Shown here piece after piece: positions 18,069 to 52,076 of a DNA stretch of 64,000 nt. The DNA comes from Dongia mobilis. Its GTDB lineage: Bacteria > Pseudomonadota > Alphaproteobacteria > Dongiales > Dongiaceae. The notes under the pieces were generated by a model, which worked only from the letters and a program-made list of their open reading frames with translations, was not told the origin of the DNA and did not search any database. The stretch's first letter is position 1; every line of letters begins with the position of its first letter. The DNA is taken from the NCBI RefSeq assembly GCF_004363235.1, contig NZ_SNYW01000009.1:186001-250000 (forward strand). The letters are read 5' to 3'. The translations under genes and the position numbers were made by a program.

Positions 18069-20174
18069 ATGTGGCGTTCGTTGGGATCGGGGAGAAGGCG
18101 TCGGCGGGCATTGGCCGTCGTACTTCTCCTTGCGCTGCTGTCGGGCGGCGCCTGGTGGCTGGACCGTGCCAATCCGCCGTTTCAGGGCCGGCTCGGCGAC
18201 CAATCCGCCCTGGTCCTGGCCGCCGACGGCCAGATCCTGCGGGCCTTCGCTACGGCCGACGGCGCCTGGCGCTTTCCAATCGAGGTAACGGATGTCGACC
18301 CACGGTTTCTGCGCTATCTGAAGGCCTATGAAGATCGACGCTTTGACCGGCATCCCGGCATCGACCCGCTGGCGGCCATGCGCGCAATCTGGCAGGCGGT
18401 CGTTCACGGCGAGATCATCTCCGGCGCGTCGACGCTCACCATGCAGACCGCGCGCCTCCTTGAACCGCGACCAAGGGACCTGCAGGCGAAGGTGATCGAG
18501 GCCCTGCGGGCGTTGCAGTTGACTTGGCATTGGGGCCGGGCGCGCGTTCTGGATACCTACCTGACGCTGGCACCCTATGGCGGCAATCTCGAGGGCATTC
18601 GCGCCGCAGCGCTCGCCTATTTCGGCAAGGAACCGCGGCACCTGACCGAGGCCGAGGCGGCATTGCTGGTCGCCCTGCCGCAGAGCCCGGAACGATTGCG
18701 TCCCGACCGGTTTCCGGAAGCTGCCCGCGCCGCGCGCGACAAGGTGTTGCAGCGCCTCCTCGACCAGGGGGAGATCGATTCTGCGAGCTATGAGGCGGCG
18801 CGCGCTGAGGCGGTGCCGACGCGGCGTCGTCCGGCCCTCACCGATGCGCCGCATCTCTCTGAGCGGCTGCGACGGCAGTTTCCCGGAAATCGCGAGATCA
18901 ACACCTATGTCAATCGCGCGCTGCAATTGCGCCTGCAGGATATGCTGAGCCGCGCCGCGCGAGAGCTTGAAGCCGGCGCCACGGCGGCCGCATTGGTGGT
19001 CGCCAATGACGGGCGCCGGGTGATCGCCTATGCCGGCTCGGCGGACTATTTCGACCGGCGGCAATTTGGGCCGATCGACATGGTGCGGGCGGTGCGTTCG
19101 CCGGGGTCGACGCTGAAGCCGTTCATCTACGGCATGGCCTTCGACCAGCTGGCGGTGCATCCCGAGAGTATCATGGTCGACCAGCCGATGCGCTTCGGTG
19201 ATTATGCGCCAGAGAATTTCGACCGCCTTTTCCGCGGCGAGGTGCCGGCGCGCGAGGCGCTGCAATTGTCGCTAAATCTGCCGGCGGTGGCCCTGCTCGA
19301 TGCGGTCGGCGCCCCCCCTTTTGCGCGACGCCTGGCTGATGCCGGGTACCCGCTGGCCCTGCCGAAGGATTCGGGACGGCCCGGCCTACCCATCGCGCTC
19401 GGCGGGGTCGGCGTCACCCTGGAACAGATGGTCGGCCTCTATGCGGCTCTGGCGGATCAGGGGCGCGCCCTGCCACTATCCCTTGCCGAGGGTGAAGCGC
19501 CGGGGGGCATGGTCCGGCTGCTGGATCCGCTCGGCGCCTATTATGTCACAGATATCCTCGAGGATACGCCGCCACCGCCAAGCTGGCTCGCCGCCGGCAA
19601 CCGTCGGGACGGCAGCCGCATTGCCTACAAGACCGGCACGTCCTACGGCTATCGCGATGCCTGGGCCCTCGGCTATACGCGCGACTATACGATCGGCGTC
19701 TGGGTTGGGCGCCCGGATGGCAGTTTCTCGGCCGGGCGCATGGGGCGGGACGCGGCGGCGCCGTTGCTGTTCGACATATTCGACCAATTGCCGCCCAGCG
19801 GCAGCGCGCTTGCCGAAACGCCGCCGGCTGGCGCCCTGCTGGTTGGGCAGAATGCCCTGCCGCCCAATCTGCGCCGCTTTCGTACCGCCGGCGAGATCGA
19901 CCTGGCTGGCCCCGAGCGGGACAAGGTGCGGATTGCCTTCCCGCTGGACGGGGCAACGATGATGTTCAGGTCGATTGGCGGCACCGCGGCACCTCTGGTG
20001 CTGAAGGCGGAAGGTGGCAGGCTGCCGTTGCGCTGGATGGTCAACGGCCGGGCGGTCGGCTCGCAGCCCTATCTGCGCCAGACGCAATGGAACCCCGACG
20101 GCCGGGGCGCCCATCGCGTCACGGTGATCGACGCCAACGGCAATTCGACCAGCGCCGAGGTATGGCTCAAGTAG
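18069..20174 (+). CDS. pbpC: Penicillin-binding protein 1C (bifunctional peptidoglycan synthase)
   Basis: A 701-residue class A PBP with one N-terminal membrane anchor (about 15-30). The transglycosylase domain has YEDRRF near 87-92 and GASTLTMQ near 120. The transpeptidase has Ser347-Thr-Leu-Lys350, Ser401-Leu-Asn403 and Lys521-Thr-Gly523. A C-terminal beta domain (about 605-701) matches the PBP1C-specific tail. All catalytic motifs are intact. The ATG directly follows the macroglobulin stop, so translation is coupled. It polymerises glycan strands and may cross-link them in the periplasm. Its 3' end lies 3 bases from the convergent aminotransferase stop, leaving no room for a terminator. 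Confidence 0.96.
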   Translation: MWRSLGSGRRRRRALAVVLLLALLSGGAWWLDRANPPFQGRLGDQSALVLAADGQILRAFATADGAWRFPIEVTDVDPRFLRYLKAYEDRRFDRHPGIDPLAAMRAIWQAVVHGEIISGASTLTMQTARLLEPRPRDLQAKVIEALRALQLTWHWGRARVLDTYLTLAPYGGNLEGIRAAALAYFGKEPRHLTEAEAALLVALPQSPERLRPDRFPEAARAARDKVLQRLLDQGEIDSASYEAARAEAVPTRRRPALTDAPHLSERLRRQFPGNREINTYVNRALQLRLQDMLSRAARELEAGATAAALVVANDGRRVIAYAGSADYFDRRQFGPIDMVRAVRSPGSTLKPFIYGMAFDQLAVHPESIMVDQPMRFGDYAPENFDRLFRGEVPAREALQLSLNLPAVALLDAVGAPPFARRLADAGYPLALPKDSGRPGLPIALGGVGVTLEQMVGLYAALADQGRALPLSLAEGEAPGGMVRLLDPLGAYYVTDILEDTPPPPSWLAAGNRRDGSRIAYKTGTSYGYRDAWALGYTRDYTIGVWVGRPDGSFSAGRMGRDAAAPLLFDIFDQLPPSGSALAETPPAGALLVGQNALPPNLRRFRTAGEIDLAGPERDKVRIAFPLDGATMMFRSIGGTAAPLVLKAEGGRLPLRWMVNGRAVGSQPYLRQTQWNPDGRGAHRVTVIDANGNSTSAEVWLK

Positions 20175-21602: not shown

Positions 21603-23294
21603 TCAGTTCGTCGGCGATTTCAGAAGCTGCTTCGCCTTGGCGATGTCGGCCTCCGGCATCTGCCGGTCGAGATCGTTCAGCATGGATCGCGCCGGTATGG
21701 CCATGGCACCACCGCCATCGGCTACTAGGCTCAGCCATCGGTATGACTCGACCAGGTTCTGCGGCACGTTCGGGCTGCGGAAGTAGAGCAGTCCGGCCTG
21801 GTACCGCGCCTTTTCATTGCCGGCTTCGGCGGCGCGCAAATACCATTTCAGCGCCTCGGTATCGTTTTGCGGGACGCCCTGTCCGAAATCGTGAATTTGC
21901 CCGACCAGCACCTGCATCGCGGCATCGCCGCCTTCCGCCAGTTGCGTGAAAATGGCGAGTGCGGTCTGCGGTTCCCCGCGTTCGAAGGCGGCCCAGCCAT
22001 CGGCGGCGGTGGCGCCCGCGGGCACCGCCACTGGCGCCATGACGGGTGCCGCCGCCACGTCCTGCACAGCTGCCGGCTGCGCGGCCGGGGCCGGTATTTC
22101 GCCATTTGCCGGTACTTCGATGATACCGGCGGATTCCGGCGACGCATCCTGGCCAGGGGCTGCGCCGCAGCGGCGATAGGCTATGCCGACCATAGATTGC
22201 GGCATGGAGTCGGGGACGCCGGCGATGACCATCCGGCTGTCGTCCTCGCGACGATATGCGTAAACCTGGGTCGAGCCGTCGCTGGCCGTTGATGTCACGC
22301 GAATGAGGTTGCCCTCGATCTGATAGGTGGCGCGCATGCGGACCGCCACTTCGCCATCGAACCAGCTCAGGTTTTCGGTCGTCGTGAATTCGATGCCGCC
22401 ATCCCTCGGACAGCCGAGCGACGGCCCCTGCCATTGTCCGATCAGCCAATTGCCGTCGCTGCGCTGTACCGGGGCGATCATGGCCGTTTGCGCAGTGGCT
22501 GGCTGTGTGGCCTGAACCGGCTGGGGTTGAACCGGCATGGCTTGAACCGGTTGAGGCTGAGCCGCTTGAGGTTGAGCTGGCTGGGGCGCCGTCGCCGTAC
22601 CGCTCCCGCCGATGGCCACGGTATCGCCGCCGATATCGAGCAGGATCTCCTGGGACGGATTGGCGGGTGCAGCCGCCGGGCTGGTCTCGGAACCAAGGCC
22701 GCTGATGGTGAGGTCACCAGCGGCCGCGCTGTCCGAGGCCCCGGTCCCGGTCGCGCCTAGGGCCTCGGTCGGACCTTGTACCGGGACGGCCAGACTGCCG
22801 GTCGTTGTCGGCGTCGTGAAGGTCGGTGCCGCATTGGCGCTCTGCGCCGACACGGCAGATGGCCGCAACTGACGCAGCAGCGACACCGACTGGCGATCAC
22901 CCTTTGCTGCCGCGCGCTCATACCATTGGCGCGCCATTTCGACATCGAATGGCTTGCCATGGCCGGTGGCGTATTGGTTCCCCAGGTTGCGCATGGCCAG
23001 CGGCAGGCCGCCTTCGGCCGCCATTTCGTACCAGCGGGCAGCTTCGTAATTGTCTTCGGGCACCCCAAGACCATGGTCGTAGAGGGCGCCGATGCTGTTC
23101 TGCGCCACGGGATCGCCAGCCTCGGCCAAGGGCCGCCATGCCTCAAGGGCCGCCAGGAATTCCCCCCGGTAATAGGCATTGACGCCGGTCTGGTAGTCTG
23201 CGGCAGCCGGAACGGGCGTCATGGCGAGGAGCCCGATGCCGATAATTCCGTAAAACGACGCCTTGCGCGCGAAATGGCGCGTGATTCGGATCAC
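21603..23294 (-). CDS. Periplasmic Sel1-repeat protein with central Pro/Gln-rich linker
   Basis: I prefer the GTG at 23294, preceded by GGGGG at 5 bases; an in-frame TTG at 23306 is the alternative. The ~563-residue product has a signal peptide ending ...PVPAAA. Sel1-like repeats follow (about 35-140, e.g. AEAGDPVAQNSIGALYDHG). Next come a low-complexity linker with repeated Q-P-V-Q-A units, a small beta-rich domain (about 290-390, WLIGQWQGP to YRRCG) and more Sel1 repeats near the C-terminus. Sel1 proteins are scaffolds in envelope and signalling complexes. The linker DNA (about 22500-22590) is a degenerate tandem repeat. The specific partner is unknown. Confidence 0.88.
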   Translation of the reverse strand: MIRITRHFARKASFYGIIGIGLLAMTPVPAAADYQTGVNAYYRGEFLAALEAWRPLAEAGDPVAQNSIGALYDHGLGVPEDNYEAARWYEMAAEGGLPLAMRNLGNQYATGHGKPFDVEMARQWYERAAAKGDRQSVSLLRQLRPSAVSAQSANAAPTFTTPTTTGSLAVPVQGPTEALGATGTGASDSAAAGDLTISGLGSETSPAAAPANPSQEILLDIGGDTVAIGGSGTATAPQPAQPQAAQPQPVQAMPVQPQPVQATQPATAQTAMIAPVQRSDGNWLIGQWQGPSLGCPRDGGIEFTTTENLSWFDGEVAVRMRATYQIEGNLIRVTSTASDGSTQVYAYRREDDSRMVIAGVPDSMPQSMVGIAYRRCGAAPGQDASPESAGIIEVPANGEIPAPAAQPAAVQDVAAAPVMAPVAVPAGATAADGWAAFERGEPQTALAIFTQLAEGGDAAMQVLVGQIHDFGQGVPQNDTEALKWYLRAAEAGNEKARYQAGLLYFRSPNVPQNLVESYRWLSLVADGGGAMAIPARSMLNDLDRQMPEADIAKAKQLLKSPTN

Positions 23295-23414
23295 AATTGC
23301 CCCCAATTCCTCTAAAATTCACACGATAAGGGTGCCGACCTTCTTGAGATTCCAGCAGATTTGGTGTTTCAACGTCCAGTCCCATTGTGGCAGCCGAGGG
23401 AAGCCGAGGGAAGC

Positions 23415-39520: not shown

Positions 39521-39998
39521 CGGCGGATGAGGCGAGGGCACCTACTCATCCGCCGATAGCCCGTTTCAGGCAGCGCTGATCGACACCGATCACCAGCGAA
39601 CTTCAAATCCAGTGTCGCTAAGGTCCTTGGCGATGACGAGGGCGAGGCACCGTTCGGCCGCCAGAATGCCTATCGCAAAAGTCGAAAGGGCGTTCTTGCC
39701 AAGGTTGAGTCGGTTGAGCCCAGACGTCGATGATGCCCTGCCCAATTACACGGAAGAACCTCGCGGTCGCGGGAATTACGTCACAAGTTCCACACATTCC
39801 GTGGGAATAAGGCATCGCAACATATAATATTGTGTGTTTTTGACCGTCTGGTCAGCTGTTCCGCGATGACAGAAGTAACCTTTTAATAATAATTTTAGCA
39901 AATTCCTGAGTTCGCTCCTGCTACTTTACGCTCTGTTAAGCACAGTTTCGGCTTCGCAGCGCAGACGCAGTTTGGCGCGCGCTCTTTTGGGGGATGGT
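39521..39998. other. Long AT-rich leader upstream of the adhesin secretion operon
   Basis: 478 bases with no supported gene. Two short open frames (39612-39827 and its antisense) lack a ribosome binding site and family-like sequence. From about 39820 the composition turns AT-rich, with TTTTAATAATAATTTTA around 39881-39897, in contrast to the GC-rich surroundings. It also holds the dyad at 39841-39854. This is probably the regulatory region of the tolC-adhesin operon. Confidence 0.6.
39841..39854. promoter_or_regulatory. Perfect dyad TGACC-GTCT-GGTCA, TetR-type operator candidate
   Basis: Five-base arms around a 4-base spacer form a perfect inverted repeat about 145 bases before the tolC start. 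TTGACC at 39840-39845 resembles a -35 box overlapping the left arm, although no good -10 follows. GACC/GGTC dyads of this kind are common TetR-family operators. No TetR gene is adjacent. Confidence 0.4.
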
Positions 39999-41357
39999 AT
40001 GGGCACGAGAACGGGTAACAGTCGGCGATTGCCTTACAGGCTGGGGGTGTCCTGCCTTGTCGGCATCATGCTGCTAACGGGAATGGGGAGCGCATCCGCC
40101 GAGACCCTGGAGCAGGCCCTGTCGGGCCTGTTGCAGAGCAGCGACCGCGTCACTGCCGCGCAGATGAACCTGCAGGCCAATACCGAAGGGATCGACGAGG
40201 CGCTGTCGGCCTATTACCCGAAAGCGGCCATTACCGGCGACGTCGGCTATGAATACACAGATTCCCCGTCGCTGCGCGACGACGGCATCGACCATTTCGA
40301 TACCGACCGTCAGGGCGTCGCCCTTACCCTCACGCAGAACGTCTGGGACGGCTGGCGCCGCGAGGCGGCGGTTGACGTGGCGCGACTCAACGAGCAGGTG
40401 GCCAGCCTCAGCCTCGGGGCCACGATCCAGGATGTTCTGTTCGAGGCGATCACCGCCTATCACGAGGTCCTGCGCCAGACCCGGCTGATCGAGATCGCGA
40501 AATCCGACGAAGAAAACCTGCAGACCCAATTGCAGCTCGAGGACGAGCGCGTCCAGCGTGGGTCGGGCATCACCGTGGACGTGCTGCAGGCGAAGTCACG
40601 TCTGCAGCTGGCCAAGGAGCGGCGCGTCGCTTTCGAAGGCCGGCTCAAGGATGCGATCGCCCGCTACCAGCAGGTCTACAGCACGGCGCCGAACGTTGCC
40701 GGGCTGGTCGATCCCGTCCCGCCCATGGGCATGCTGCCAGCGGATATTGACTCGGCCATTTCCCTCGCACTCGACGAAAACCCAGCCGTGGATGCCAGTG
40801 CCCGCGGCATCGACATCGCGAGCCAGGAACGGATCGCGGCACGCAGCGACTTCTTTCCGCGCTTCGACCTGGTGGGCACTGCCGGCTATGACCAGGATGT
40901 CGACGGCGTCGAGGGCTATCGCGAGAATTACTCGGTCGTGCTGCGCATGACGTGGGAATTCTTCTCCGGCTTCCAGACGCAGTCGCGCGTCAAGCGGGCT
41001 GCGGCCGTCTATAACCAGCGCATGAGCGAATTCAACGACACCGGCCGACGGGTGACCGAGGAGGTCCGCCTCGCCTGGGAAAATCTGCAGACCTCCAGGG
41101 AGCGGGTCGAGCTGCTGCAGAACGCCGTCAACATCGCCGAGGAAGTCTATGCCGCCCGCCAGAGGCTGCGCGAGGCCGGCCAGGAATCCTCGATCAACGT
41201 CCTCGATTCGTTGAGCGAATTGAAGAGCGCGCAGATCAACTTTGTCGATGCCAGCTACAACGCGCGTCTTTCGGTCTACCGGGTCTTGCGCGCGGTCGGG
41301 CATCTGCGACCGCAGGATATGGGCCTGCAGGACCCGGAAATGCGGAGCGTCGAATAG
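39999..41357 (+). CDS. TolC-family outer membrane channel of the type I secretion system
   Basis: The start is the ATG at 39999, preceded by GGGGGA at 4 bases. The 452-residue product has a signal peptide ending GSASA, then the duplicated TolC pattern: beta segments (GYEYTDSP and GYDQDVDG) and long coiled helices (SLGATIQDVLFEAITAYHEVLRQ; TEEVRLAWENLQTSRERVELLQNAV). Length and pattern fit TolC/LapE-type exit ducts. It is 49 bases ahead of the giant adhesin gene, whose strong GGGAGG site suggests high translation. It forms the outer membrane conduit for the adhesin with the ABC transporter and adaptor downstream. Confidence 0.95.
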   Translation: MGTRTGNSRRLPYRLGVSCLVGIMLLTGMGSASAETLEQALSGLLQSSDRVTAAQMNLQANTEGIDEALSAYYPKAAITGDVGYEYTDSPSLRDDGIDHFDTDRQGVALTLTQNVWDGWRREAAVDVARLNEQVASLSLGATIQDVLFEAITAYHEVLRQTRLIEIAKSDEENLQTQLQLEDERVQRGSGITVDVLQAKSRLQLAKERRVAFEGRLKDAIARYQQVYSTAPNVAGLVDPVPPMGMLPADIDSAISLALDENPAVDASARGIDIASQERIAARSDFFPRFDLVGTAGYDQDVDGVEGYRENYSVVLRMTWEFFSGFQTQSRVKRAAAVYNQRMSEFNDTGRRVTEEVRLAWENLQTSRERVELLQNAVNIAEEVYAARQRLREAGQESSINVLDSLSELKSAQINFVDASYNARLSVYRVLRAVGHLRPQDMGLQDPEMRSVE

Positions 41358-41406: not shown

Positions 41407-44400
41407 ATGGTTGCGACACCGGATCTCGATTTGAGTGGTGATGGCCGGCGCCTTGTCATAAGGGCGGACGGCGAAGCCAGGATCGATCTTGCCGATCTCG
41501 GTGGCTCTGGCGATGCCGGCAGCATTCTGAAGGCTGGCTTCCAGCAGCATGGTGCCGATCTGCTGATCGACATGGCCGGCGGCCGCGACATCGTGATCAA
41601 GGACTACTTCACGCAGGACGTCGCGGCGGACCTGGTCCTCGACGGCGCCGCGCGTCTTGACGGCAGCCTGGTGACCCGCCTCGCGCAGCCGGCTGCCAGC
41701 GGCCTGTTCGCCGAGAGCGGCCAACTCGCCAGCGATGCGCTCCAGCAGGCGCAGGCGGCGGATGCCGTGGGCTCGGTCGAAAGCATTTCCGGTACGGTCA
41801 GCGTGCAGCGCGGCGGCACCACCGTCGAGCTCGCTCAGGGCGACCCGATTTTTCTCAATGATGTGATCCTGGCGGGTAGCGACGGCAGTGTCGGCATCGT
41901 CTTCGTCGACGGCACCACCTTCTCGCTGTCCGCCGGCGCCCGCATGACGATCGACGAGATGGTCTATGACCCGTCCAGCGGTGGCGGCAGTCTGGTGACC
42001 AGCGTCCTCCAGGGCGCCTTCGTGTTCTCGACCGGTAGCATTGCGCCGAACGGCAACATGGAGGTGAACACGCCGGTCGGCACGATCGGCATCCGCGGCA
42101 CGACGGTGGCGGCCCGCATCGCCCTGGAAGGCAGCGATACGGTCATCGTCCTGCTGGCCGATCCGGACGGCCATGTCGGCCGCATCTTTTTCCAGAATGG
42201 CGGTGGCCTGGTCGAACTGACCGAGGCTAATACCGCCGTCTTCGTCACCAGCTTCTTCATCGGGCCCGGCGAGCCGACCGAGGTCACCCCGGCGCAGCTG
42301 ATCGAGTTCTTCGACCAGTTGCTGCAGTTCCACTCGACCGGCCCCGCCAACCAGGAAGGCGCCATTGATGAGGGTGATGTCGAGGATCTGGCGTCGCAGC
42401 TTGCAGACCAGCTGGGCCTCGGCGATTTTGCCCTGGCCGCCGGTGGCGACGGCGAGCAGATGCAGATGGAGACCACGGATTCCGTCGGCAAGCTGTCGGA
42501 ATGGCTGGGGTTCGTGCCGGATCCGCTGCAGCCGGTCAGCTTCACGACAGTAAACCTGTCCGGCAATGTCGGCACGAATGGCATCCAGATTCCGGGTGGA
42601 CCCAACCAGCCGGGGATCCCGAATGACTACCTCGACCCGTTCTCACCGCCAGCCGGAACGACACCGCCGCCGTCACCCTTCAACTTCTTCACCGGCGGTC
42701 CCGGCAACGACCTGCTCGACGCCAGCAATTCGAACAAGTCCGCCATCATCACCGGTTCGGGCGGCGACGATACCCTGATCGGCAGTTCCTTCGACGATCA
42801 GGTCGCCGGTGGCGGGGGTGACGACACAATCGTCGCGGGCCATGGCGGTGGCAACGATTTCTATGACGGCGGAGACGACGAGGACACGATCGTCTATGCC
42901 AGCACGGACGAGGGAGTGATCGTTGACCTCGGCGCCGGAACGGCGTCCGGTGATCCGGATATCGGTGTCGACAAGCTGGCAAATATTGAGAATGTCACGG
43001 GCGGTTCCGGCAATGACAAGCTGATCGGCAACGGCGGCGCCAATGTTCTAAGCGGGGCCGCCGGCGCGGATGAACTGCAGGGCAATGGCGGCGACGACAC
43101 GCTGATTGGCGGCGAGAGCGGCTCGCTCGGCGGCGCCTACGGCAATTCCTGGGTCGAGGACACCGATGTGGCGGTCTTCACGGGCAATGCGGCCGATTAC
43201 AAGATCGTCGTCGGCGAAGGCGGCGACATCCAGGTTTTCGACCTGCGCGAAGGCAGCCCGGACGGCGCCGACTCGCTCCAGGAGATGGAGAAGATCCGCT
43301 TTGCCGACCAGGAGATCTGGATCAGCGACCTGAATTATGGCGACAATTATGCGCCCACCGACATCCAGATCGAGGGCGGCGCGGTACCCGAGAATGCGCA
43401 GGGCGCCACGGTCGGCTATCTCTATGCGGTAGACGCGGACGAGGAAGATTGGCATCAGTTCAGTGTCGCCGACGAGCGCTTCGAAATCGTCGAAGGCGAA
43501 CTGCGCCTGCGCGATGGTGTCAGCCTGGACTACGAAGCCCTTGAGAACGGTGAGATCCAGGTCGAGGTGACCGCCACCGATTCCGCCGGCCTCAGCGTGA
43601 CCAAGACACTGACGATTGCGGTCGGCGACGAGAACGATCCGCCGAGCGGCCCGACCGATGTCGACAACGCCGCCAATCTGGTCAACGAGAACGCCGCTGC
43701 CGGAACCTATGTCGGCATCACCGCGCAGTCGACCGACCAGGATCCGGACGAGACTGTCACCTACTCCCTCGCCGAGGATGCCGGCGGCCGGTTCCAGATC
43801 GACGCCCAGACCGGCAAGGTCACGGTGGCCGAGGGCGCCGACCTCGATTTCGAGGAAGCAACGTCGTATCAGATCACCGTCCGCGCCAACAGTTCCGGCG
43901 AACTCGGCAACGAGGAGACCTTCACCATCAATATCGGCGACGTGAACGAGGCGCCGGGCGAAATCGCCGACACCGACCAGGACAACCCGTACTACAATTC
44001 CGTGTTCGAAAATGCCGGCAATGGCACGACAGTGGGCATCACCGCGCAGGCAAGCGATCCGGATGCCGGTGACGTAATTACCTACAGCCTCGAAGACGAT
44101 TTCGACGGCCTGTTCCAGATCGACGGCGCTACCGGCATCGTCACCATCAAGGACAATTCCAAGCTCGATTTCGAGACCACCAGCAGCTACGACCTGACCG
44201 TGGTCGCGACGGACAAGGGCGGCCTCAGTTCGCAGCAGACCTTCACGGTCCAGGTCGAGGACGCCGATGAGGGCGGTGATGGCGGCCAGGTCATCCGCAA
44301 TGACGGCCTGCTGATCGTCGGCAAGGACGGATTTGGGGAACTGGAGATCAGCGGCGAAGAAAGCGAGCAGTCCACCAAGGCCATTATCGGGCAGGAGGTC

Positions 44401-46413
44401 GGCGGCGACGGCATCATCCGGATCTCCGGTCCCACGGCAAGCCTGATCACGACGCCGAACGGCATCATCGTTGGCGATGCGGGCAAGGGCCATCTCATCG
44501 TCGAGCAGGGCGGGGCGGTATATTCCTTCAATGCCGAAAGCGGCCTTGGCAATCAGATCATCATCGGTCGCGAGACGGGCAGCGAGGGCCGCGTCGATGT
44601 GGACGGGGTCGAATCCATCATCGGCGAAGGCGAGCAACCGACCGATTATCACAGCACCATCCTGCTGACCGGCGACAACAACGCCATCGTGGTCGGCCTC
44701 GACGGCAAGGGCGAACTCAATGTAACCGATGGCGGCCTGGTCGGTACGCTGACGCTGGATATCGCCGCGGGCAAGGGTAATGGCCACGTCACCATCAGCG
44801 ACGAAGGCAGCAACGTCCTCGTATCGTCGCAATTCGGCCGCCGAACGGGCGAGTGGGAACAGGAAACCAGCGGACTGGTGCGCGTCGGCATCGGCAATGG
44901 CAGCGTCGGCATGCTCAGCGTGCTGGCCGGCGCCACCTTGCTTGTCACGAATGATGCCGAGGGCGAGACCAGCGCGCCGGGCATGGAAATCGGTGTCGAC
45001 GAGGGAAGCAAGGGTACGGTCACGATCGAGGGGAGCCAGTCGCAGGTCTCGATTATAGAGATGCCCAATTCAACCGAGTCCTGGGGCGCCTACCTTGCGA
45101 TCGGCGGTGCAGGTCACGGAAGCATGGTGGTCAAGGATGGCGGCGCCTTCGAGCTCTTCGGAGAGAATGCGCATGTCGTATTTGGCAGCCAGGCCGGTGG
45201 CAGCGGCTCGTTGCTGGTCACGGGAGAGTTTTCGACCTTCGACGTAAGCGGCGATGGCGCCATGGTCGAAATCGGCAGGTCCTTTGACGGGCCCAATTCG
45301 TCCGGCGCCTTGACTGTTCAGCAGGGGGCGGTCCTGTCGGTCGATTCCGGTAATTCCGAGGCCACCTATAACATCTACGTCAATGACGGGTCGCTGATGC
45401 AGATCATCGGCGGCACGGTCAATGGCAACATCCTGGTTTCCGGCGGCACGCTTTCGGCACCGGGCCTTGCCACGATCAATGGCAGCGTCGGCCTTGAAGA
45501 GAGCGACATTTTCCAATCGACCCTGTCGGTGGACGTCTGGGGTGAGCAGTCACATGGCAGTTTCGCCATTGGCGGCTCGTTCAACCTCAACCACGGCACC
45601 ATCGCCTTCAATTTCTATGGCGGCTACAACCCGCAGGGGGAGAGCAGCTTCACCTTCCTGACGGCGGAGACCGTCAATCTGGGCCTTTTCGGCAGCGAGG
45701 ATATCTCCCTCGCCGCCTATGGCGTCGACCAGTTCTTCTCCTTCGGTATCGGCCAGGAAGGGGGCAACCTCGAATTCATCGCCTACAACAGTTCGCTCGG
45801 CGGCAACAGCACCGTCTTCAAGGGTGGCAACCAGGACGACCGCTTCGGCGGCGACGAGAGCAAGGGTTATGCCCATCTCAGCGGCGGCGGCGGCGACGAC
45901 TGGCTGCTCTCGAATTACGGCGCCCAAGGGGAAGGCCGGCACATTCTCTATGGCGGTGCCGGCAATGACGTCCTGCAGGGCTTCGGCGATGCCGACGAGT
46001 TCTACATGGAAGCGACGACGGACAACTTCAGTGTTCTGTCAAATACCAGCGATCGCGATTTCGCGTTCGACCATATTCTGGAGTTCGACACCGCCGCCGA
46101 CCGGATCGTCTTTGATGAATTTTACGGTGGGGACGGCTGGGGTTTTGAACTGGACGACCCCACGGGCTTCGATCCGAACAGCTTCATCCAGCTTGACCAG
46201 GGCGTCACCTATGACGGCGTCCTCGGCTTCGAGCATCAGGCCTATGACGGCAAGAACCCGGTACTGATCCTCGAGAATCTCGGCGACGGCAATTACAACC
46301 TGATCTATGACGGCAATGGCGCCGATGAGGGCTATACCATCGTCGCCAATGTGCAGACGACCAGCGGGAGCTTCTCGGTCGAGAATGTCGGCATCAATCC
46401 GGCCTCGAATTGA
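41407..46413 (+). CDS. Mosaic type I-secreted RTX/cadherin adhesin
   Basis: A 1668-residue acidic, cysteine-poor protein with no signal peptide and a strong GGGAGG ribosome site. Domains in order: an N-terminal region (1-125); a FecR-like beta domain (about 125-240, DGTTFSLSAGARMTIDEM to NTPVGTIGIRGT); an RTX calcium-binding block (about 430-572); cadherin-type repeats ending in Asp-rich linkers (about 647-960); an array of T5SS/PEP-CTERM-type beta repeats (about 966-1363, VGxxGxGxLxV pattern); a second short RTX block (about 1473-1532); and a C-terminal tail resembling a type I secretion signal. It is probably a surface adhesin exported by the flanking channel, transporter and adaptor. The ligand is unknown. 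Confidence 0.92.
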   Translation: MVATPDLDLSGDGRRLVIRADGEARIDLADLGGSGDAGSILKAGFQQHGADLLIDMAGGRDIVIKDYFTQDVAADLVLDGAARLDGSLVTRLAQPAASGLFAESGQLASDALQQAQAADAVGSVESISGTVSVQRGGTTVELAQGDPIFLNDVILAGSDGSVGIVFVDGTTFSLSAGARMTIDEMVYDPSSGGGSLVTSVLQGAFVFSTGSIAPNGNMEVNTPVGTIGIRGTTVAARIALEGSDTVIVLLADPDGHVGRIFFQNGGGLVELTEANTAVFVTSFFIGPGEPTEVTPAQLIEFFDQLLQFHSTGPANQEGAIDEGDVEDLASQLADQLGLGDFALAAGGDGEQMQMETTDSVGKLSEWLGFVPDPLQPVSFTTVNLSGNVGTNGIQIPGGPNQPGIPNDYLDPFSPPAGTTPPPSPFNFFTGGPGNDLLDASNSNKSAIITGSGGDDTLIGSSFDDQVAGGGGDDTIVAGHGGGNDFYDGGDDEDTIVYASTDEGVIVDLGAGTASGDPDIGVDKLANIENVTGGSGNDKLIGNGGANVLSGAAGADELQGNGGDDTLIGGESGSLGGAYGNSWVEDTDVAVFTGNAADYKIVVGEGGDIQVFDLREGSPDGADSLQEMEKIRFADQEIWISDLNYGDNYAPTDIQIEGGAVPENAQGATVGYLYAVDADEEDWHQFSVADERFEIVEGELRLRDGVSLDYEALENGEIQVEVTATDSAGLSVTKTLTIAVGDENDPPSGPTDVDNAANLVNENAAAGTYVGITAQSTDQDPDETVTYSLAEDAGGRFQIDAQTGKVTVAEGADLDFEEATSYQITVRANSSGELGNEETFTINIGDVNEAPGEIADTDQDNPYYNSVFENAGNGTTVGITAQASDPDAGDVITYSLEDDFDGLFQIDGATGIVTIKDNSKLDFETTSSYDLTVVATDKGGLSSQQTFTVQVEDADEGGDGGQVIRNDGLLIVGKDGFGELEISGEESEQSTKAIIGQEVGGDGIIRISGPTASLITTPNGIIVGDAGKGHLIVEQGGAVYSFNAESGLGNQIIIGRETGSEGRVDVDGVESIIGEGEQPTDYHSTILLTGDNNAIVVGLDGKGELNVTDGGLVGTLTLDIAAGKGNGHVTISDEGSNVLVSSQFGRRTGEWEQETSGLVRVGIGNGSVGMLSVLAGATLLVTNDAEGETSAPGMEIGVDEGSKGTVTIEGSQSQVSIIEMPNSTESWGAYLAIGGAGHGSMVVKDGGAFELFGENAHVVFGSQAGGSGSLLVTGEFSTFDVSGDGAMVEIGRSFDGPNSSGALTVQQGAVLSVDSGNSEATYNIYVNDGSLMQIIGGTVNGNILVSGGTLSAPGLATINGSVGLEESDIFQSTLSVDVWGEQSHGSFAIGGSFNLNHGTIAFNFYGGYNPQGESSFTFLTAETVNLGLFGSEDISLAAYGVDQFFSFGIGQEGGNLEFIAYNSSLGGNSTVFKGGNQDDRFGGDESKGYAHLSGGGGDDWLLSNYGAQGEGRHILYGGAGNDVLQGFGDADEFYMEATTDNFSVLSNTSDRDFAFDHILEFDTAADRIVFDEFYGGDGWGFELDDPTGFDPNSFIQLDQGVTYDGVLGFEHQAYDGKNPVLILENLGDGNYNLIYDGNGADEGYTIVANVQTTSGSFSVENVGINPASN
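42694..43123 (+). repeat. RTX (hemolysin-type) nonapeptide repeats, block 1
   Basis: Gly/Asp-rich units such as GGPGNDLLD, GSGGDDTLIG, GGSGNDKLIG and GNGGDDTLIG bind calcium and fold into a parallel beta-roll after secretion. A spacer ending IENVTGG separates two sub-blocks, as in many RTX proteins. Confidence 0.9.
43345..44285 (+). repeat. Three cadherin-like repeats
   Basis: Three units of about 100 residues share the pattern VPENAxGxxVGxLxAxDxD ... DYEALxx, with the calcium-binding DENDPP / DVNEAPG linkers. Present units start near PTDIQIEGG, PTDVDNAA and IADTDQD. They form extended, calcium-stiffened stalks. Confidence 0.85.
44302..45493 (+). repeat. T5SS/PEP-CTERM-associated-type beta repeats
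   Basis: About ten degenerate units carry the core (I/V)(I/V)GxxGxGxLxVxxGG, for example IVGDAGKGHLIVEQGGAV, VVGLDGKGELNVTDGG and AIGGAGHGSMVVKDGG. This pattern is best known from autotransporters and PEP-CTERM proteins and predicts a beta-helix. Confidence 0.75.
45823..46002 (+). repeat. RTX repeats, block 2, near the C-terminus
   Basis: A short block with GGNQDDRFGGD, GGGGDDWLL and GGAGNDVLQGFGDAD precedes the presumed secretion signal, the usual position for type I substrates. Confidence 0.8.
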
Positions 46414-48125
46414 TACGCGCCATGTTGGACCGGCGCTACCGGATGCTGATGGACAAACTGGGCCCGGCTTTGCCGGGCCTTCTGGTGATGTCCCTTTTCA
46501 TCAACCTGCTGGCGCTGGCGACGCCGCTTTTCGTCATGCAGGTCTATGACCGGGTGATTTTCCACGCCGGGCTCACGACCCTGCAGGCCCTGGTTCTCGG
46601 CATCTGTGCCGTCATCCTGTTCGATTTCTTCCTGCGCCAGGCGCGCAGCCGGGTGTTGCAGCGCGTGGCCCTGGCGGTCGATGTTGATCTCGGCCGGGCG
46701 CTCTTCGCCAAGGTCGCCGGCCTGCCATTGCAGGTGCTGGAGGCAAGGCCGGGCCATACCTGGCAGTTCCTGTTCCGCGATCTCGAGACCGTGCGCAACA
46801 CGGTGGCCGGGGCGGCGATCGTCGCCATCGTCGATCTGCCTTTCATCGTCTTCTTCCTGGGGCTGGTGATCTGGCTGGCGCCGCCTCTCGCCTGGGTCTT
46901 CGCCATCGTCGCCGTCGCCTTTGCCGTACTCGGCCTCTGGAATGGGCTCACGGTCGGCCATGCGACAAGGCTCGAGCGCGAGGCCGGCATGCGCCGGGAC
47001 CGCATCCTCAACGAGATCGTCCTCGGGCGCGCGGTGATGAAATCCGCCGCCATGGCGCGCCCATTGCAGGATCTGTGGGAAGACGGCCAGGCCGCCAGCA
47101 TCGCGTCCTCGATCCGCCGCGGCCGCCTGGCCGATTCCTCGATGAATGTCGGCGCCAGCCTCGGGGTCATCGCTACGATCGCGCTCACTTCGGTTGGCGC
47201 GGTTGCGATCCTCGACCTCGAGATGACGGTCGGCACGCTGGTTGCCGCCAATCTGCTGGCGGGACGCCTGATCGCGCCGCTCTCGCAGCTCATCTCCTCC
47301 TGGCGCGCCCTCGCGCAGATGCGCGATTCGGCCGGGCGGCTGGCGGCGATCCTGGCTGAGCCTGATGACCGCCGCGCGGATGCCATCGACCTGCCGCGCC
47401 CCAGCGGCCGCCTGCAGCTCGAGGCCGTGAGCTTCGCCTATGTGCCGGAGGCGCCGCCGGTCCTTGGCAATATCAGCCTGCGCTTCGGACCGGGCGGGCT
47501 CCATGCCATCGTCGGTCCCAATGGCAGCGGCAAGACCACGCTGCTCAAAATCGCCCATGGCCTCTATCGCCCGTCGAAGGGGCGCGTGCTGCTGGACGAC
47601 GGCGACATGAGCCAGTTCAGCCGCGACCAGATCGCGCGCTGGATCGGCTATGTGCCCCAGGACGGCTTCCTCTTCTCCGGCAGCGTGCGCGAGAACATCG
47701 CCCGCTTCTCCGGCGAAGTGGCCGATGCCGAGATCCTGGCGGCGGCCCAGCTCGCCGGCGTCCATGCCTTCGTGGCTGATCTGCCGGACGGATACGATAC
47801 CCAGGTGGGCGAGGGCGGCAGCCGCTTCTCGACCGGCCAGCGCCAGCGGATCGCTATCGCCCGCGCCCTGGTCGGCCGCCCGCCGATCCTGCTGCTGGAC
47901 GAGCCGACCAGCAATCTCGACCGCGAGGCGGAGGAAGAGTTGCGCCGGCAGCTGGTGGAACTTGGCAAGTCGACCACGGTCATCGTCGTCACCCACAGCC
48001 CGGCCTTGCTCCAGTCCAGCGACAGCATTACCGTTCTCATCAAGGGCAATATCGCGCTGGCGGGCCGCAGTGACCAGGTCCTGCCGCGCCTGATGGGCAA
48101 CAATGTGCGGCAGGTGGGCACATGA
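46410..48125 (+). CDS. Type I secretion ABC transporter (fused permease/ATPase)
   Basis: A 571-residue protein starting at a TTG that overlaps the adhesin stop (ATG at 46422 is an alternative). The membrane domain opens with LFINLLALATPLFVMQVYDRV, the hallmark of HlyB/PrtD/LapB transporters. There is no N-terminal C39-like domain, as in the PrtD subgroup. In the ATPase, Walker A GPNGSGKT is at 369-376 and Walker B ends at Asp497-Glu498. The signature motif is FSTGQ (473-477) instead of LSGGQ, while the following RQRIAIARAL is normal. It should drive one-step export of the adjacent adhesin from the cytoplasm. Confidence 0.95.
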   Translation: MIRAMLDRRYRMLMDKLGPALPGLLVMSLFINLLALATPLFVMQVYDRVIFHAGLTTLQALVLGICAVILFDFFLRQARSRVLQRVALAVDVDLGRALFAKVAGLPLQVLEARPGHTWQFLFRDLETVRNTVAGAAIVAIVDLPFIVFFLGLVIWLAPPLAWVFAIVAVAFAVLGLWNGLTVGHATRLEREAGMRRDRILNEIVLGRAVMKSAAMARPLQDLWEDGQAASIASSIRRGRLADSSMNVGASLGVIATIALTSVGAVAILDLEMTVGTLVAANLLAGRLIAPLSQLISSWRALAQMRDSAGRLAAILAEPDDRRADAIDLPRPSGRLQLEAVSFAYVPEAPPVLGNISLRFGPGGLHAIVGPNGSGKTTLLKIAHGLYRPSKGRVLLDDGDMSQFSRDQIARWIGYVPQDGFLFSGSVRENIARFSGEVADAEILAAAQLAGVHAFVADLPDGYDTQVGEGGSRFSTGQRQRIAIARALVGRPPILLLDEPTSNLDREAEEELRRQLVELGKSTTVIVVTHSPALLQSSDSITVLIKGNIALAGRSDQVLPRLMGNNVRQVGT

Positions 48126-49414
48126 CGCTGGCTCTCGATTCCCTGCGACGCGATACGCGTTCATCCGGCTGGTCGGTGCTGGCGATGATCAGCATCGGCC
48201 TGATCTGTGCGTTTGTCGTCTGGGCGACAGTCGCGGAGTTCGACCAGTTCTCGATCGCCCAGGGCGAGGTGGCGCCGGCCGACAAGGTCAAGGTCATCCA
48301 GCATCTCGAGGGTGGCTCGATCGCCGCAATCTTCGTCACCGACGGACAGGTGGTGACAGCCGGCAGCGAATTGGTCGCGGTCGAGCTTGGCCTGGGCGGC
48401 GCCAATCGTGAGGAATTGCAGGCCCGCCTCGACAGCCTCGCCTTGCTGCGGGCACGCCTGCTGGCGGAATCGAGCGACCAGCCGCTCACCCTGCCGGCCG
48501 ATGTCGCGCAGAGGCGGCCGGACCTTGCCGCAGCCGAGCAATCCGCCTATAGCGCCCGCCAGACCGAACTCGCCAACCGCATCGAATCCGCCCAGCAGCG
48601 GGTGCGTCAGCAGGAACTCGCGGTCAGCGAGCTGCAGGCCACCTTCAATGCCACTGTCACCGATCTCGACCTCGCCGGGAAGAACCTCGCCATGTCGCAG
48701 GACCTGCTGCGCGACGGGCTCACCTCCAAGATGGAACACCTGGCGCGCGAACGCGAGGCGAAGCTGCTGGAGGGGAAGGTCAGCGCGCTGCGCTCCTCGC
48801 TTCCGAAGGCGCGCGCGGCGCTCGACGAGGCGCGCGCCAACCTCAACGATGAAAAGCTAAAATTCAACCGCGCCGCCTTCGAGGAACTGGGAAAGGTGGA
48901 GCAGGACATCTCCTCGACCAACGAGATGTTTGCCGAGGCCGATACCCAGGCCTCGCGCAAGATCATCCGCGCGCCGGTCGACGGCATCGTCAAGAATTTG
49001 CGATTCCATACCATCGGGGGTGTCATCGGACCGGGCGATCCGATCATGGAAATCGTGCCGGTCAACGAGAGCGTCGTGATCGAGGCGCGGCTGCGGCCGG
49101 AAGACAGCGGCGTCGTCGAGATGGGCCAGCCGGTCCGCATCAAGATCAGCGCTTATGATTTCACCCGGTTTGGGACGCTCTCCGGTACGCTGACCTATAT
49201 CAGCGCGGATTCCGTGGCCGACGACGAGGGCAATACCTTCTTCCAGGTCCTGGTGACGCCGGACAAATCCTATCTGGGCGAGACGCCGGGCGAATATCCG
49301 ATCCGCCCCGGCATGACGGCGACGGTGGATATCAGGACTGGTACGCGCACGGTCATCGAATTCCTGCTGAAACCTGTCATGCGGCTGCGCTACGACAGCC
49401 TGCGCGAGGGCTGA
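48122..49414 (+). CDS. HlyD-family periplasmic adaptor of the type I secretion system
   Basis: A 430-residue adaptor with one N-terminal membrane helix (about 18-38) and lipoyl-like halves, seen at HLEGGSIAAIFVTDGQ and KIIRAPVDGIVKNLRF. A long coiled-coil hairpin lies between them (about 100-285), and a beta-barrel/C-terminal part includes the family signature around IRPGMTATVDIRTGTRTV. It links the inner-membrane ABC transporter to the TolC channel. The start overlaps the transporter stop by 4 bases (ATGA), giving translational coupling. Confidence 0.96.
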   Translation: MTLALDSLRRDTRSSGWSVLAMISIGLICAFVVWATVAEFDQFSIAQGEVAPADKVKVIQHLEGGSIAAIFVTDGQVVTAGSELVAVELGLGGANREELQARLDSLALLRARLLAESSDQPLTLPADVAQRRPDLAAAEQSAYSARQTELANRIESAQQRVRQQELAVSELQATFNATVTDLDLAGKNLAMSQDLLRDGLTSKMEHLAREREAKLLEGKVSALRSSLPKARAALDEARANLNDEKLKFNRAAFEELGKVEQDISSTNEMFAEADTQASRKIIRAPVDGIVKNLRFHTIGGVIGPGDPIMEIVPVNESVVIEARLRPEDSGVVEMGQPVRIKISAYDFTRFGTLSGTLTYISADSVADDEGNTFFQVLVTPDKSYLGETPGEYPIRPGMTATVDIRTGTRTVIEFLLKPVMRLRYDSLREG

Positions 49415-49421
49415 GCGCGAC

Positions 49422-52076
49422 GTGCCGGAGGCTGGTTCATCCTGGCGCCGCCGGCTGGCGCGCATCTTCCTGCGCGGGCATTGGCTGGTCGCACTCCTGC
49501 TGCTCGCTCTGCTGGCGTTACGCTTCCAGGACCCGGCCGTGGTCCAGAAACTGCGTTTCATTCAATTCGACCTGTTTCAACAGATCGAGCCGCGCCCCGA
49601 CGCCCGGGCGCCGGTCGTTATTGTCGACATCGACGATGCCAGCCTGGCCGAGATCGGCCAATGGCCCTGGCCGCGTGACGTGCTGGCTAAACTGGTGGAC
49701 CGGCTGCGCGAGGCCGGCATAGGCGTCATCGGCTTCGACGTGACCTTCCCTGAAGCCGACCGCGCGACGCCCGGATGGGTGTTTGATGCCCTGGGCGAAG
49801 GTGCCAACGGCTTTGCCGCCGACATGATGGCTGGCCCCAGCAACGATACCGTCTTTGCCGACGCCATGCGCAAGGCCCGCGTCGTCCTCGGTATGGCCGG
49901 TTCGGGTCGCATCACCGCCAAGGGCGACCAGCCGATTCCAACCCCGCTGGGTGAACTGGGCGGCGATCCGCGGCCCTATCTCCCCGCCTTTCCCGGCATC
50001 GTCGCCAATCTGGCCGAGCTCGACCAGGCGGCCGCCGGCCGCGGTGCCTTTTCCCTGCGGCCCGAAACCGACACCATCATCCGGCGGGTACCGACCCTGA
50101 TCCGGGTCGAGCAGCAGATCTATCCCTCACTGGTCGCGGAAATCCTGCGCGTGGCCATGGGTGAGCCCAGCATGACGATCCGCTCCAACCAGCACGGGAT
50201 CGACAGCCTGATCATCCAGAAGGCGCGAATACCCACGGACCGCCACGGCAATGTCTGGGTGCGCTACCAGCAGCGCGATCCCTCAATTTATATTCCGGCG
50301 GCTGATATCCTCGCCGGAAAGGTACTGTCCGAACGGCTGCAGGGGCGGATTGCCCTGGTAGGAACCTCGGCGGCGGGGCTGGAGGACATCGTGGCGACGC
50401 CGCTCGGCGTCCAGGTGCCCGGCGTCGAGATCCACTGGCAATTGCTCGGTTCCATCCTCAGCAACCAGTATCTATATCGGTTGGGCTTTGCCGATGCTGC
50501 CGAGATGGCTGTGGTGCTGGTTATCGGCCTGCTCATCATCCTTCTCGCCGGCCTTCTGAAGGCGCGCTGGACGGCACTCCTGCTGCTGGCCCTGCTGGCG
50601 GCCTCGGCCGGCGGTGCCTGGTATGCCTTCAGTGCCCACGGCCTGCTGTTCGATACGGTCTATCCCGGTATCGCCGCGATCCTGCTCTATACGGCCCAGA
50701 CCTATATCAGCCATCATGCCTCGGAGCGGCAGCGGCGGCAGGTGAGCGAAGCTTTCGGCCGCTATGTGTCGCCGGTCCTGGTGCAGCGCCTGGCCAAGGA
50801 CGCGACACGGTTGGAACTGGGTGGCGAGACGCGGGACATGAGCATCCTGTTCTGCGACATCCGCGGCTTCACCCAGATATCCGAGCGCTTCAAGGGCAAT
50901 CCCCAGGGCCTGACCGCCCTCATCAACCGTTTCCTGACACCGCTCACCGAGGAGGTGATGCAGCATCAGGGCACGATCGACAAGTATATGGGCGATTGCA
51001 TCATGGCATTCTGGAACGCGCCGCTCGACGATCCCAGGCACGCGCGCAATGCCTGTACAGCGGCACTCGCCATGTTCCGCGCCCTCGACGATCTCAACGC
51101 CGAACTGTCGCTCGAGGCGCGCCAGGTCCAGCCGCCGGAGACTCTGCCGCGCGCTTATCGGCGCCTCAAGGAGTTGGGTGACGGCCGCGAGGAAGAACGG
51201 CTGCAGATCGCGGCCACCTTGCGCAGCAATGCCAGCGAGGGACATGCCTATGCACAATATACCCTTGGCAAGGCCTATCGCGACGGCCTGATCGGTCGGC
51301 GCAGTGCCGACGAGGCGGTACGCTGGTTCGCGGCCGCGGCCGAGCAGGGCTACTCGCCCGCCCAGCGCAATCTGGGCGAACGTCTCGCCCGCGGCGACGG
51401 CGTCGCGCGGGACGAAATCCAGGCACTGCACTGGCTGACACTCGCCGCGCGCGACGGCCTCGCCGCGGCAGAAGAGGTCCGCATTGAACTGATGCAGCGC
51501 ATGAGTGTCGCCGAGATCGCTGCCGCCGAACGGCGCGCCCGCGCTTGGCGGCCGAACAGCCCGCGGGTCGGTATCACGGCAATCAACATGGGTATCGGCA
51601 TCAACACTGGCGAATGCGTCGTCGGCAATATGGGCTCGCGGCTGCGCTTCGACTATTCGGTCCTGGGCGATGCCGTGAACGTGGCGGCCCGCCTCGAATC
51701 ACAATCGAGCAATTACGGCGTCGATATCGTCATCAGCGAGTCGACCTATGCCGAGGCCAGCGATTTTGCCGCCATCGAAATCGACCGTATCATCGTCAAG
51801 GGCAAGAGCGAGCCGATCCGCATCTATGCCCTGCTGGGTACGCCGGAACTCGCCGCCTCGGACGATTTCCGCGACCTCTCCTGGCGGCACGCGGCGATGC
51901 TGCAGGCCTATCGCGAGCGGCAATGGCAGGAATGTCTGCAGCATGTCGAGGCCTGCGCCCATCTCTGGCCACGCCTCGCTCCGCTCTATGATCTCTACCG
52001 CGACCGGGTCGAAAACTATCTGGTCGATCCGCCCGGCGCCGATTGGGACGGCGTCTTCGTCGCCCTCAAGAAGTAG
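49422..52076 (+). CDS. CHASE2-class III adenylate/guanylate cyclase with Sel1-repeat insertion
   Basis: An 884-residue membrane protein starting at GTG, 7 bases after the adaptor stop. One N-terminal helix, a periplasmic CHASE2 sensor (about 50-340, with VVIVDIDDASLAEIG) and about three helices (about 350-430) precede a class III cyclase domain. Metal aspartates are Asp479 (FCDIRGF) and Asp525 (KYMGD). Lys521 fits ATP preference, and DYSVLGDAVNVAARLE (about 744-759) carries the transition-state Asn/Arg. Between them, about residues 565-717, sit Sel1-like repeats (ASEGHAYAQYTLGKAYRDG; AAEQGYSPAQRNLGERLARGDG) that lengthen the usual ~60-residue gap. All catalytic residues remain, so activity is expected. 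The product (cAMP or cGMP) is not certain. Confidence 0.92.
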   Translation: MPEAGSSWRRRLARIFLRGHWLVALLLLALLALRFQDPAVVQKLRFIQFDLFQQIEPRPDARAPVVIVDIDDASLAEIGQWPWPRDVLAKLVDRLREAGIGVIGFDVTFPEADRATPGWVFDALGEGANGFAADMMAGPSNDTVFADAMRKARVVLGMAGSGRITAKGDQPIPTPLGELGGDPRPYLPAFPGIVANLAELDQAAAGRGAFSLRPETDTIIRRVPTLIRVEQQIYPSLVAEILRVAMGEPSMTIRSNQHGIDSLIIQKARIPTDRHGNVWVRYQQRDPSIYIPAADILAGKVLSERLQGRIALVGTSAAGLEDIVATPLGVQVPGVEIHWQLLGSILSNQYLYRLGFADAAEMAVVLVIGLLIILLAGLLKARWTALLLLALLAASAGGAWYAFSAHGLLFDTVYPGIAAILLYTAQTYISHHASERQRRQVSEAFGRYVSPVLVQRLAKDATRLELGGETRDMSILFCDIRGFTQISERFKGNPQGLTALINRFLTPLTEEVMQHQGTIDKYMGDCIMAFWNAPLDDPRHARNACTAALAMFRALDDLNAELSLEARQVQPPETLPRAYRRLKELGDGREEERLQIAATLRSNASEGHAYAQYTLGKAYRDGLIGRRSADEAVRWFAAAAEQGYSPAQRNLGERLARGDGVARDEIQALHWLTLAARDGLAAAEEVRIELMQRMSVAEIAAAERRARAWRPNSPRVGITAINMGIGINTGECVVGNMGSRLRFDYSVLGDAVNVAARLESQSSNYGVDIVISESTYAEASDFAAIEIDRIIVKGKSEPIRIYALLGTPELAASDDFRDLSWRHAAMLQAYRERQWQECLQHVEACAHLWPRLAPLYDLYRDRVENYLVDPPGADWDGVFVALKK

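Follow-up and report, generated by a model that had tools for sequence, protein, structure and literature searches.

The window, by which we mean the whole 64,000-nucleotide stretch of the Dongia mobilis contig NZ_SNYW01000009.1 that was analysed, encodes a class III cyclase with a CHASE2 domain (P0001) at the end of a same-strand run of genes that begins with a TolC-type outer membrane protein (Table 1). The catalytic domain of P0001 is split between alpha3 and beta4 by Sel1-like repeats (SLRs). In Pfam searches, CHASE2 scores 189.8 bits, while Guanylate_cyc (PF00211) is matched in two stretches at 75.5 bits (cut-off 21.9) and was found in all ten members of an alignment of ten insert carriers. 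Sel1 is also called in two stretches of the whole protein, at 49.9 bits (cut-off 30.7). Hydrophobic stretches are visible on reading the protein sequence. The C-terminal tail is not specific to insert carriers, as many insert-free homologues match to its end (model position 445).

Table 1. Features of the cyclase gene and its upstream gene cluster, in positions of the window.
Feature	Position	Strand	Details
TolC-type outer membrane protein (OEP)	39972..41357	+	Cluster start; Pfam
1668-aa FecR / cadherin / RTX protein	41407..46413	+	Likely type I secretion substrate; Pfam
ABC transporter	46410..48125	+	Type I secretion type, as its neighbours suggest; Pfam
HlyD membrane fusion protein	48122..49414	+	7 nt before cyclase; Pfam
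P0001, CHASE2 class III cyclase with SLR insert	49422..52076	+	GTG start, 884 aa
CHASE2 domain	49497..50534	+	Residues 26-371; Pfam PF05226, E 8.3e-56
Catalytic half 1	50808..51107	+	Residues 463-562, end within alpha3; Pfam and alignment
D479	50856-50858	+	Catalytic half 1
K521	50982-50984	+	Catalytic half 1
D525	50994-50996	+	Catalytic half 1
SLR insert	51117..51566	+	About residues 566-715, alpha3-beta4 loop; eight predicted helices
Insert core	51222..51557	+	Residues 601-712, Sel1 repeats and terminal helices; conservation
Catalytic half 2	51567..51839	+	Residues 716-806, GIGINTG in beta4
S746	51657-51659	+	Catalytic half 2
N753	51678-51680	+	Catalytic half 2
R757	51690-51692	+	Catalytic half 2
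C-terminal helical tail	51840..52073	+	Residues 807-884; helices in predicted model

Both catalytic blocks that flank the insert can be aligned with those of the solved cyclases CyaC, CyaB and Cya2. The initial annotation had described the catalytic residues as complete, and D479, K521, D525, N753 and R757 are indeed all present, at or near the positions claimed, with S746 aligned to a Thr of CyaB. We take D479 and D525 to be the two metal Asp residues, K521 the substrate Lys, and N753 and R757 the Asn/Arg pair; the Lys-Ser pair presumably places P0001 in class IIIb. The six residues are conserved in all 15 genes that carry the insert (position 746 is Ser in 14 and Thr in one), on which basis a dead enzyme can probably be rejected. 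A gene fusion or assembly artefact is ruled out by the occurrence of these 15 genes in 14 independent genomes. It is thus extremely improbable that the gene is catalytically dead or artefactual: its frame is intact in the window and in the single-contig genomes G044, G010 and G014, even if one carrier (G238) has its coding sequence divided between two frames on its contig and another (G082) has altered residues near beta4. The frame split in G238 (L177 2269-4956) could reflect either sequencing error or decay.

The distance from the DKYMGD motif to GIGINTG is 198 residues in P0001, compared with 53 residues in ten of the 11 non-carriers listed with both motifs and 45 residues in the other (L002), so that the enlarged spacing first attributed to Sel1-like repeats is borne out. 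Pfam calls two repeats in the insert of approximately 150 residues and eight predicted helices, the first hairpin of which looks degenerate by eye. When the insert of P0001 is excised, its Sel1 score is 56.0 bits (cut-off 30.7), and the inserts of all 15 carriers are matched by Pfam Sel1 at E ≤ 0.001. An AlphaFold2 model of the insert alone, predicted from the 15 carriers (pLDDT 88.7, pTM 0.82), forms an SLR superhelix. Foldseek returned 19 matches to this model in the PDB at E ≤ 0.001, comprising 15 entries with Sel1 or SLR in their titles, two of SEL1L, one of LpnE and one of an AlgKX complex; LpnE and c5321 were the best matches. The Sel1-like nature of the insert, which a predicted structure of another kind would have contradicted, withstood this comparison, since the proteins matched are SLR proteins.

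The split catalytic region was modelled as a monomer from ten carriers (pLDDT 81.2, pTM 0.61). In line with the split described in the initial annotation, the model shows a cyclase fold with an SLR-type solenoid between alpha3 (residues 540-568) and beta4 (residues 722-735), eight helices lying between the two. Solved cyclases align to the model across the insert, with Foldseek TM-scores on the target of 0.67-0.69 for CyaB and 0.75-0.80 among the CyaC chains listed. The cyclase fold is therefore predicted to close around the insert, and the solenoid would jut out of this fold and leave it intact. Confidence is low at the joins between insert and core, where pLDDT falls under 50 (alignment positions 129-133 and 275-278).

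To determine how widespread the insert is, we compared 153 distinct catalytic domains, which were close matches to P0001 or to the ten-carrier alignment rather than a random sample. The insert was found in 15 of them, where 136-163 residues separate the equivalents of positions 565 and 716. The other 138 have between -3 and 42 residues there (five or fewer in 134); a distant cyclase group accounts for 15 of the 138, which leaves 123. The initial annotation had asked whether the insertion is conserved across relatives: it recurs in a minority of them, and its absence from the majority rejects the notion that the segment is an ordinary cyclase feature. Two paralogues in the window's own genome also have no insert.

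The 15 carrier genes are spread over 14 genomes and six family groups, one genome (G108) having two; the G764 contig is letter-for-letter identical to L038, and its carrier was counted once. In the order to which the window belongs, seven of 17 genomes have a carrier. At least seven of 385 genomes were positive in the sample of the class, with at most four candidates scored per genome, and at least two of 398 in the sample of the phylum (E ≤ 1e-90, again with at most four candidates per genome), namely the window's own genome and G044. When the search was centred on three other carriers, 3/15, 1/18 and 1/12 genomes of their respective families had a carrier, the centre genome included.

The carriers group together in the trees. 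On a tree of all 153 rows, the insert changes state twice. A smaller tree of 56 rows, chosen by hand from the 153 with three long-branched rows omitted, has three changes, and a single clade of carriers is not rejected (p-AU 0.286). One starred clade of this tree contains all 15 carriers together with seven insert-free rows, which suggests that the insert may be dispensable. On a third tree, restricted to the 50 secretion-linked rows with a scored gene orientation, the eight carriers present form one clade (98/86). One gain followed by one or two losses would fit these trees, and repeated gains are also possible. Three homologues from metagenome-assembled genomes (L051, L058 and L064), which share a starred clade, have an unrelated stretch of approximately 40 residues in the same alpha3-beta4 loop. 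As these rows, each with 42 residues, form one clade and the stretch is unrelated, the loop was extended at least twice. The extra stretch is charged and helix-like, and its size is near that of the trypanosomatid Delta-subdomain.

The mean pairwise identity among ten carriers is 0.67 and 0.65 in the two catalytic halves, 0.51 in the insert core, 0.48 in the C-terminal tail, 0.44 in CHASE2 plus TM, and 0.23 in the linker of residues 563-600. Chance can be excluded as the reason for the insert's presence: 15 genes from 14 genomes retain it, and its core shows higher identity than CHASE2 plus TM. The same conservation of the core in ten carriers makes it very improbable that the insert is a neutral, functionless inheritance in a tolerant loop, a reading to which both the insert-free genes within the carrier clade and the unrelated stretch found in the same loop of three homologues would otherwise lend support. 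Within the core, K617, R620 and D621 are invariant in all 15 carriers. On our reading of a few alignments, these positions appear variable in other SLRs.

These invariant residues could form internal contacts. They would suit an explanation without any partner, in which the solenoid would lie against the catalytic domain of its own chain, the other protomer or the C-terminal helices and act as a stabilizer; the conservation of the core but not of the linker (563-600) would also be in keeping with it. The poorly predicted joins in the monomer model, however, suggest a loosely tethered module, and we consider this intramolecular role rather unlikely.

The SLR insert is most likely a cytosolic docking or allosteric platform. 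Its location suggests how such a platform might act. In mammalian cyclases, Gs-alpha binds in a groove of C2 that lies between the alpha1-alpha2 and alpha3-beta4 loops, and makes C1 rotate (PMC2576301). In trypanosomatid cyclases, the alpha3-beta4 loop contains 36 extra residues, which make up two helices and are regarded as an allosteric site (PMC6027212). That a partner might gate the cyclase via the insert is plausible, given that the insertion lies in the loop that forms part of the Gs-alpha groove and holds the Delta-subdomain. By this analogy, an SLR module at the alpha3-beta4 loop would be well placed to link protein binding with catalysis.

The parallels have limits. The regulator at the alpha3-beta4 loop of mammalian cyclases is a separate G protein, whereas in P0001 it would be a built-in module (PMC2576301). 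The trypanosomatid Delta-subdomain likewise consists of extra helices in this loop and is a proposed allosteric site, but it comprises 36 residues in two helices with a ligand cavity (PMC6027212), compared with approximately 150 residues in eight SLR-type helices in P0001. P0001 therefore shares the location of the Delta-subdomain, as judged from predicted secondary structure, but not its 36-residue two-helix form. The combination of a CHASE2 sensor with a class III cyclase is also found in Sinorhizobium meliloti CyaD1, CyaD2 and CyaK (PMC13001267); the short alpha3-beta4 loop is a trait of the insert-free relatives examined here. LpnE, LceB and c5321 share SLR sequence and predicted fold with the insert, but, judging from entry titles alone, they do not carry these repeats inside an enzyme domain. 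A literature search, with subscription papers mostly outside its reach, found no description of an SLR-split CHASE2/class III cyclase.

Class III cyclases are usually considered to be regulated from the N-terminal side via linkers. In P0001, a whole repeat domain lies within the catalytic fold, at a loop that is used by eukaryotic regulators. Because related cyclases occur naturally in both forms, with two insert-free paralogues in the same genome, control of catalysis through this loop is directly testable in bacteria.

Two stand-alone SLR proteins are encoded in the same genome, and the end of the insert looks, by eye, like their C-terminal cap, which suggests that the donor was the tail of an SLR protein. 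The same window encodes a stand-alone Sel1-repeat protein (21606-23306, minus strand) with a C-terminal end that is similar by eye to that of the insert.

Our best explanation, which taken as a whole we give slightly less than an even chance of being correct, is that P0001 is an intact membrane class III adenylyl cyclase, periplasmic in its CHASE2 domain and cytosolic in its catalytic domain, with a built-in SLR docking platform that sets cAMP output; the domain layout, conserved residues, predicted folds, distribution and gene linkage are shown here, and its topology and activity, the donor, the partner and the direction of the effect are what we infer. In an ancestor, the alpha3-beta4 loop would have gained the C-terminal end of an SLR protein together with its cap helices, and the descendants would have retained it. 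CHASE2 would sense on the periplasmic side, with the catalytic domain in the cytosol, where the solenoid may bind a partner, perhaps a component of the linked type I secretion machinery that is exposed to the cytosol, or the substrate of that machinery. Binding could then shift the halves of the dimer and so set cAMP output, much as Gs-alpha does from the same loop in mammals.

Candidate partners are indicated by the operon context. By tblastn, eight of the 15 carriers lie directly downstream of ABC and HlyD genes on the same strand, and carriers are usually arranged in this way. Another four have FecR or TolC matches only: those of G010 and G014 adjoin two FecR giants on the same strand, that of G238 has one adjacent FecR giant on the opposite strand, and that of G007 has a TolC match on the opposite strand. 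ABC or HlyD genes were not found by tblastn in G007, G010 and G014 despite 9-10 kb of sequence upstream. The remaining three carriers have no neighbour matches, and on their upstream side the contigs run out within about 1 kb.

SLRs commonly act as scaffolds, and the co-directional operon with ABC and HlyD could also mean that the insert serves localization only, tethering the enzyme to the secretion complex or to some other place for local cAMP production while catalysis remains ungated. For this purpose, a terminal fusion would suffice and insertion into the fold would be unnecessary; moreover, related enzymes use, or are proposed to use, this loop for regulation (PMC2576301; PMC6027212). 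We regard localization alone as unlikely. A more specific version of the docking platform would be a bacterial counterpart of G-protein gating, in which the SLRs read the type I secretion complex (the ABC transporter or the FecR/RTX substrate) and CHASE2 reads the periplasm. This is quite improbable as it stands; if true, a single cyclase would report secretion or surface-protein status as cAMP.

Linkage to secretion genes is rejected as a hallmark of the insert. At the insert-free loci L039-L117, many of which are on short contigs, tblastn gave ABC or HlyD matches in at least 43 of 79, in addition to nine with TolC or FecR only and 27 with none. Since insert-free CHASE2 cyclases are also secretion-linked, the linkage is no distinguishing mark of the insert; linkage to secretion or FecR genes is common in the CHASE2 cyclase family. 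A further ten insert-free loci, including the two own-genome paralogues, have FecR in six cases and ABC or HlyD in none (tblastn). The orientation of the matches was scored by hand. The 43 linked insert-free loci comprise 39 on the opposite strand only, three on the same strand only and one mixed, so that with the mixed locus (L063) excluded, same-strand order is found in 8/8 scored carriers versus 3/42 scored non-carriers. On the 50-row tree, same-strand order changes about twice and the insert once or twice. As each changes so few times, their association is not independent evidence.

In Alphaproteobacteria, CHASE2 cyclases that have the insert and those that lack it are thus often neighbours of FecR/RTX giants or of type I secretion genes, and no publication on CHASE2 with type I secretion was found in the literature search. 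The Burkholderia BiofilmReg operon similarly has an extracytoplasmic FecR-domain protein beside a CHASE2 sensor (PMC5192318). Its output is a histidine kinase and its FecR protein is of a FecR-LysM type, whereas the P0001 cluster has a cyclase and combines FecR with RTX.

A second, distinct cyclase gene is located near the insert-free CHASE2 cyclase at 14 loci (L062, L066, L071, L072, L075, L077, L078, L081, L085, L086, L089, L090, L105 and L108). These second cyclases form a deep group of their own in the tree and were on the opposite strand wherever tblastn saw them. Elsewhere in the window (12828-20174), Pfam matches indicate a bacterial alpha-2-macroglobulin beside a transglycosylase/transpeptidase penicillin-binding protein with a BiPBP_C domain, which is a usual gene pair.
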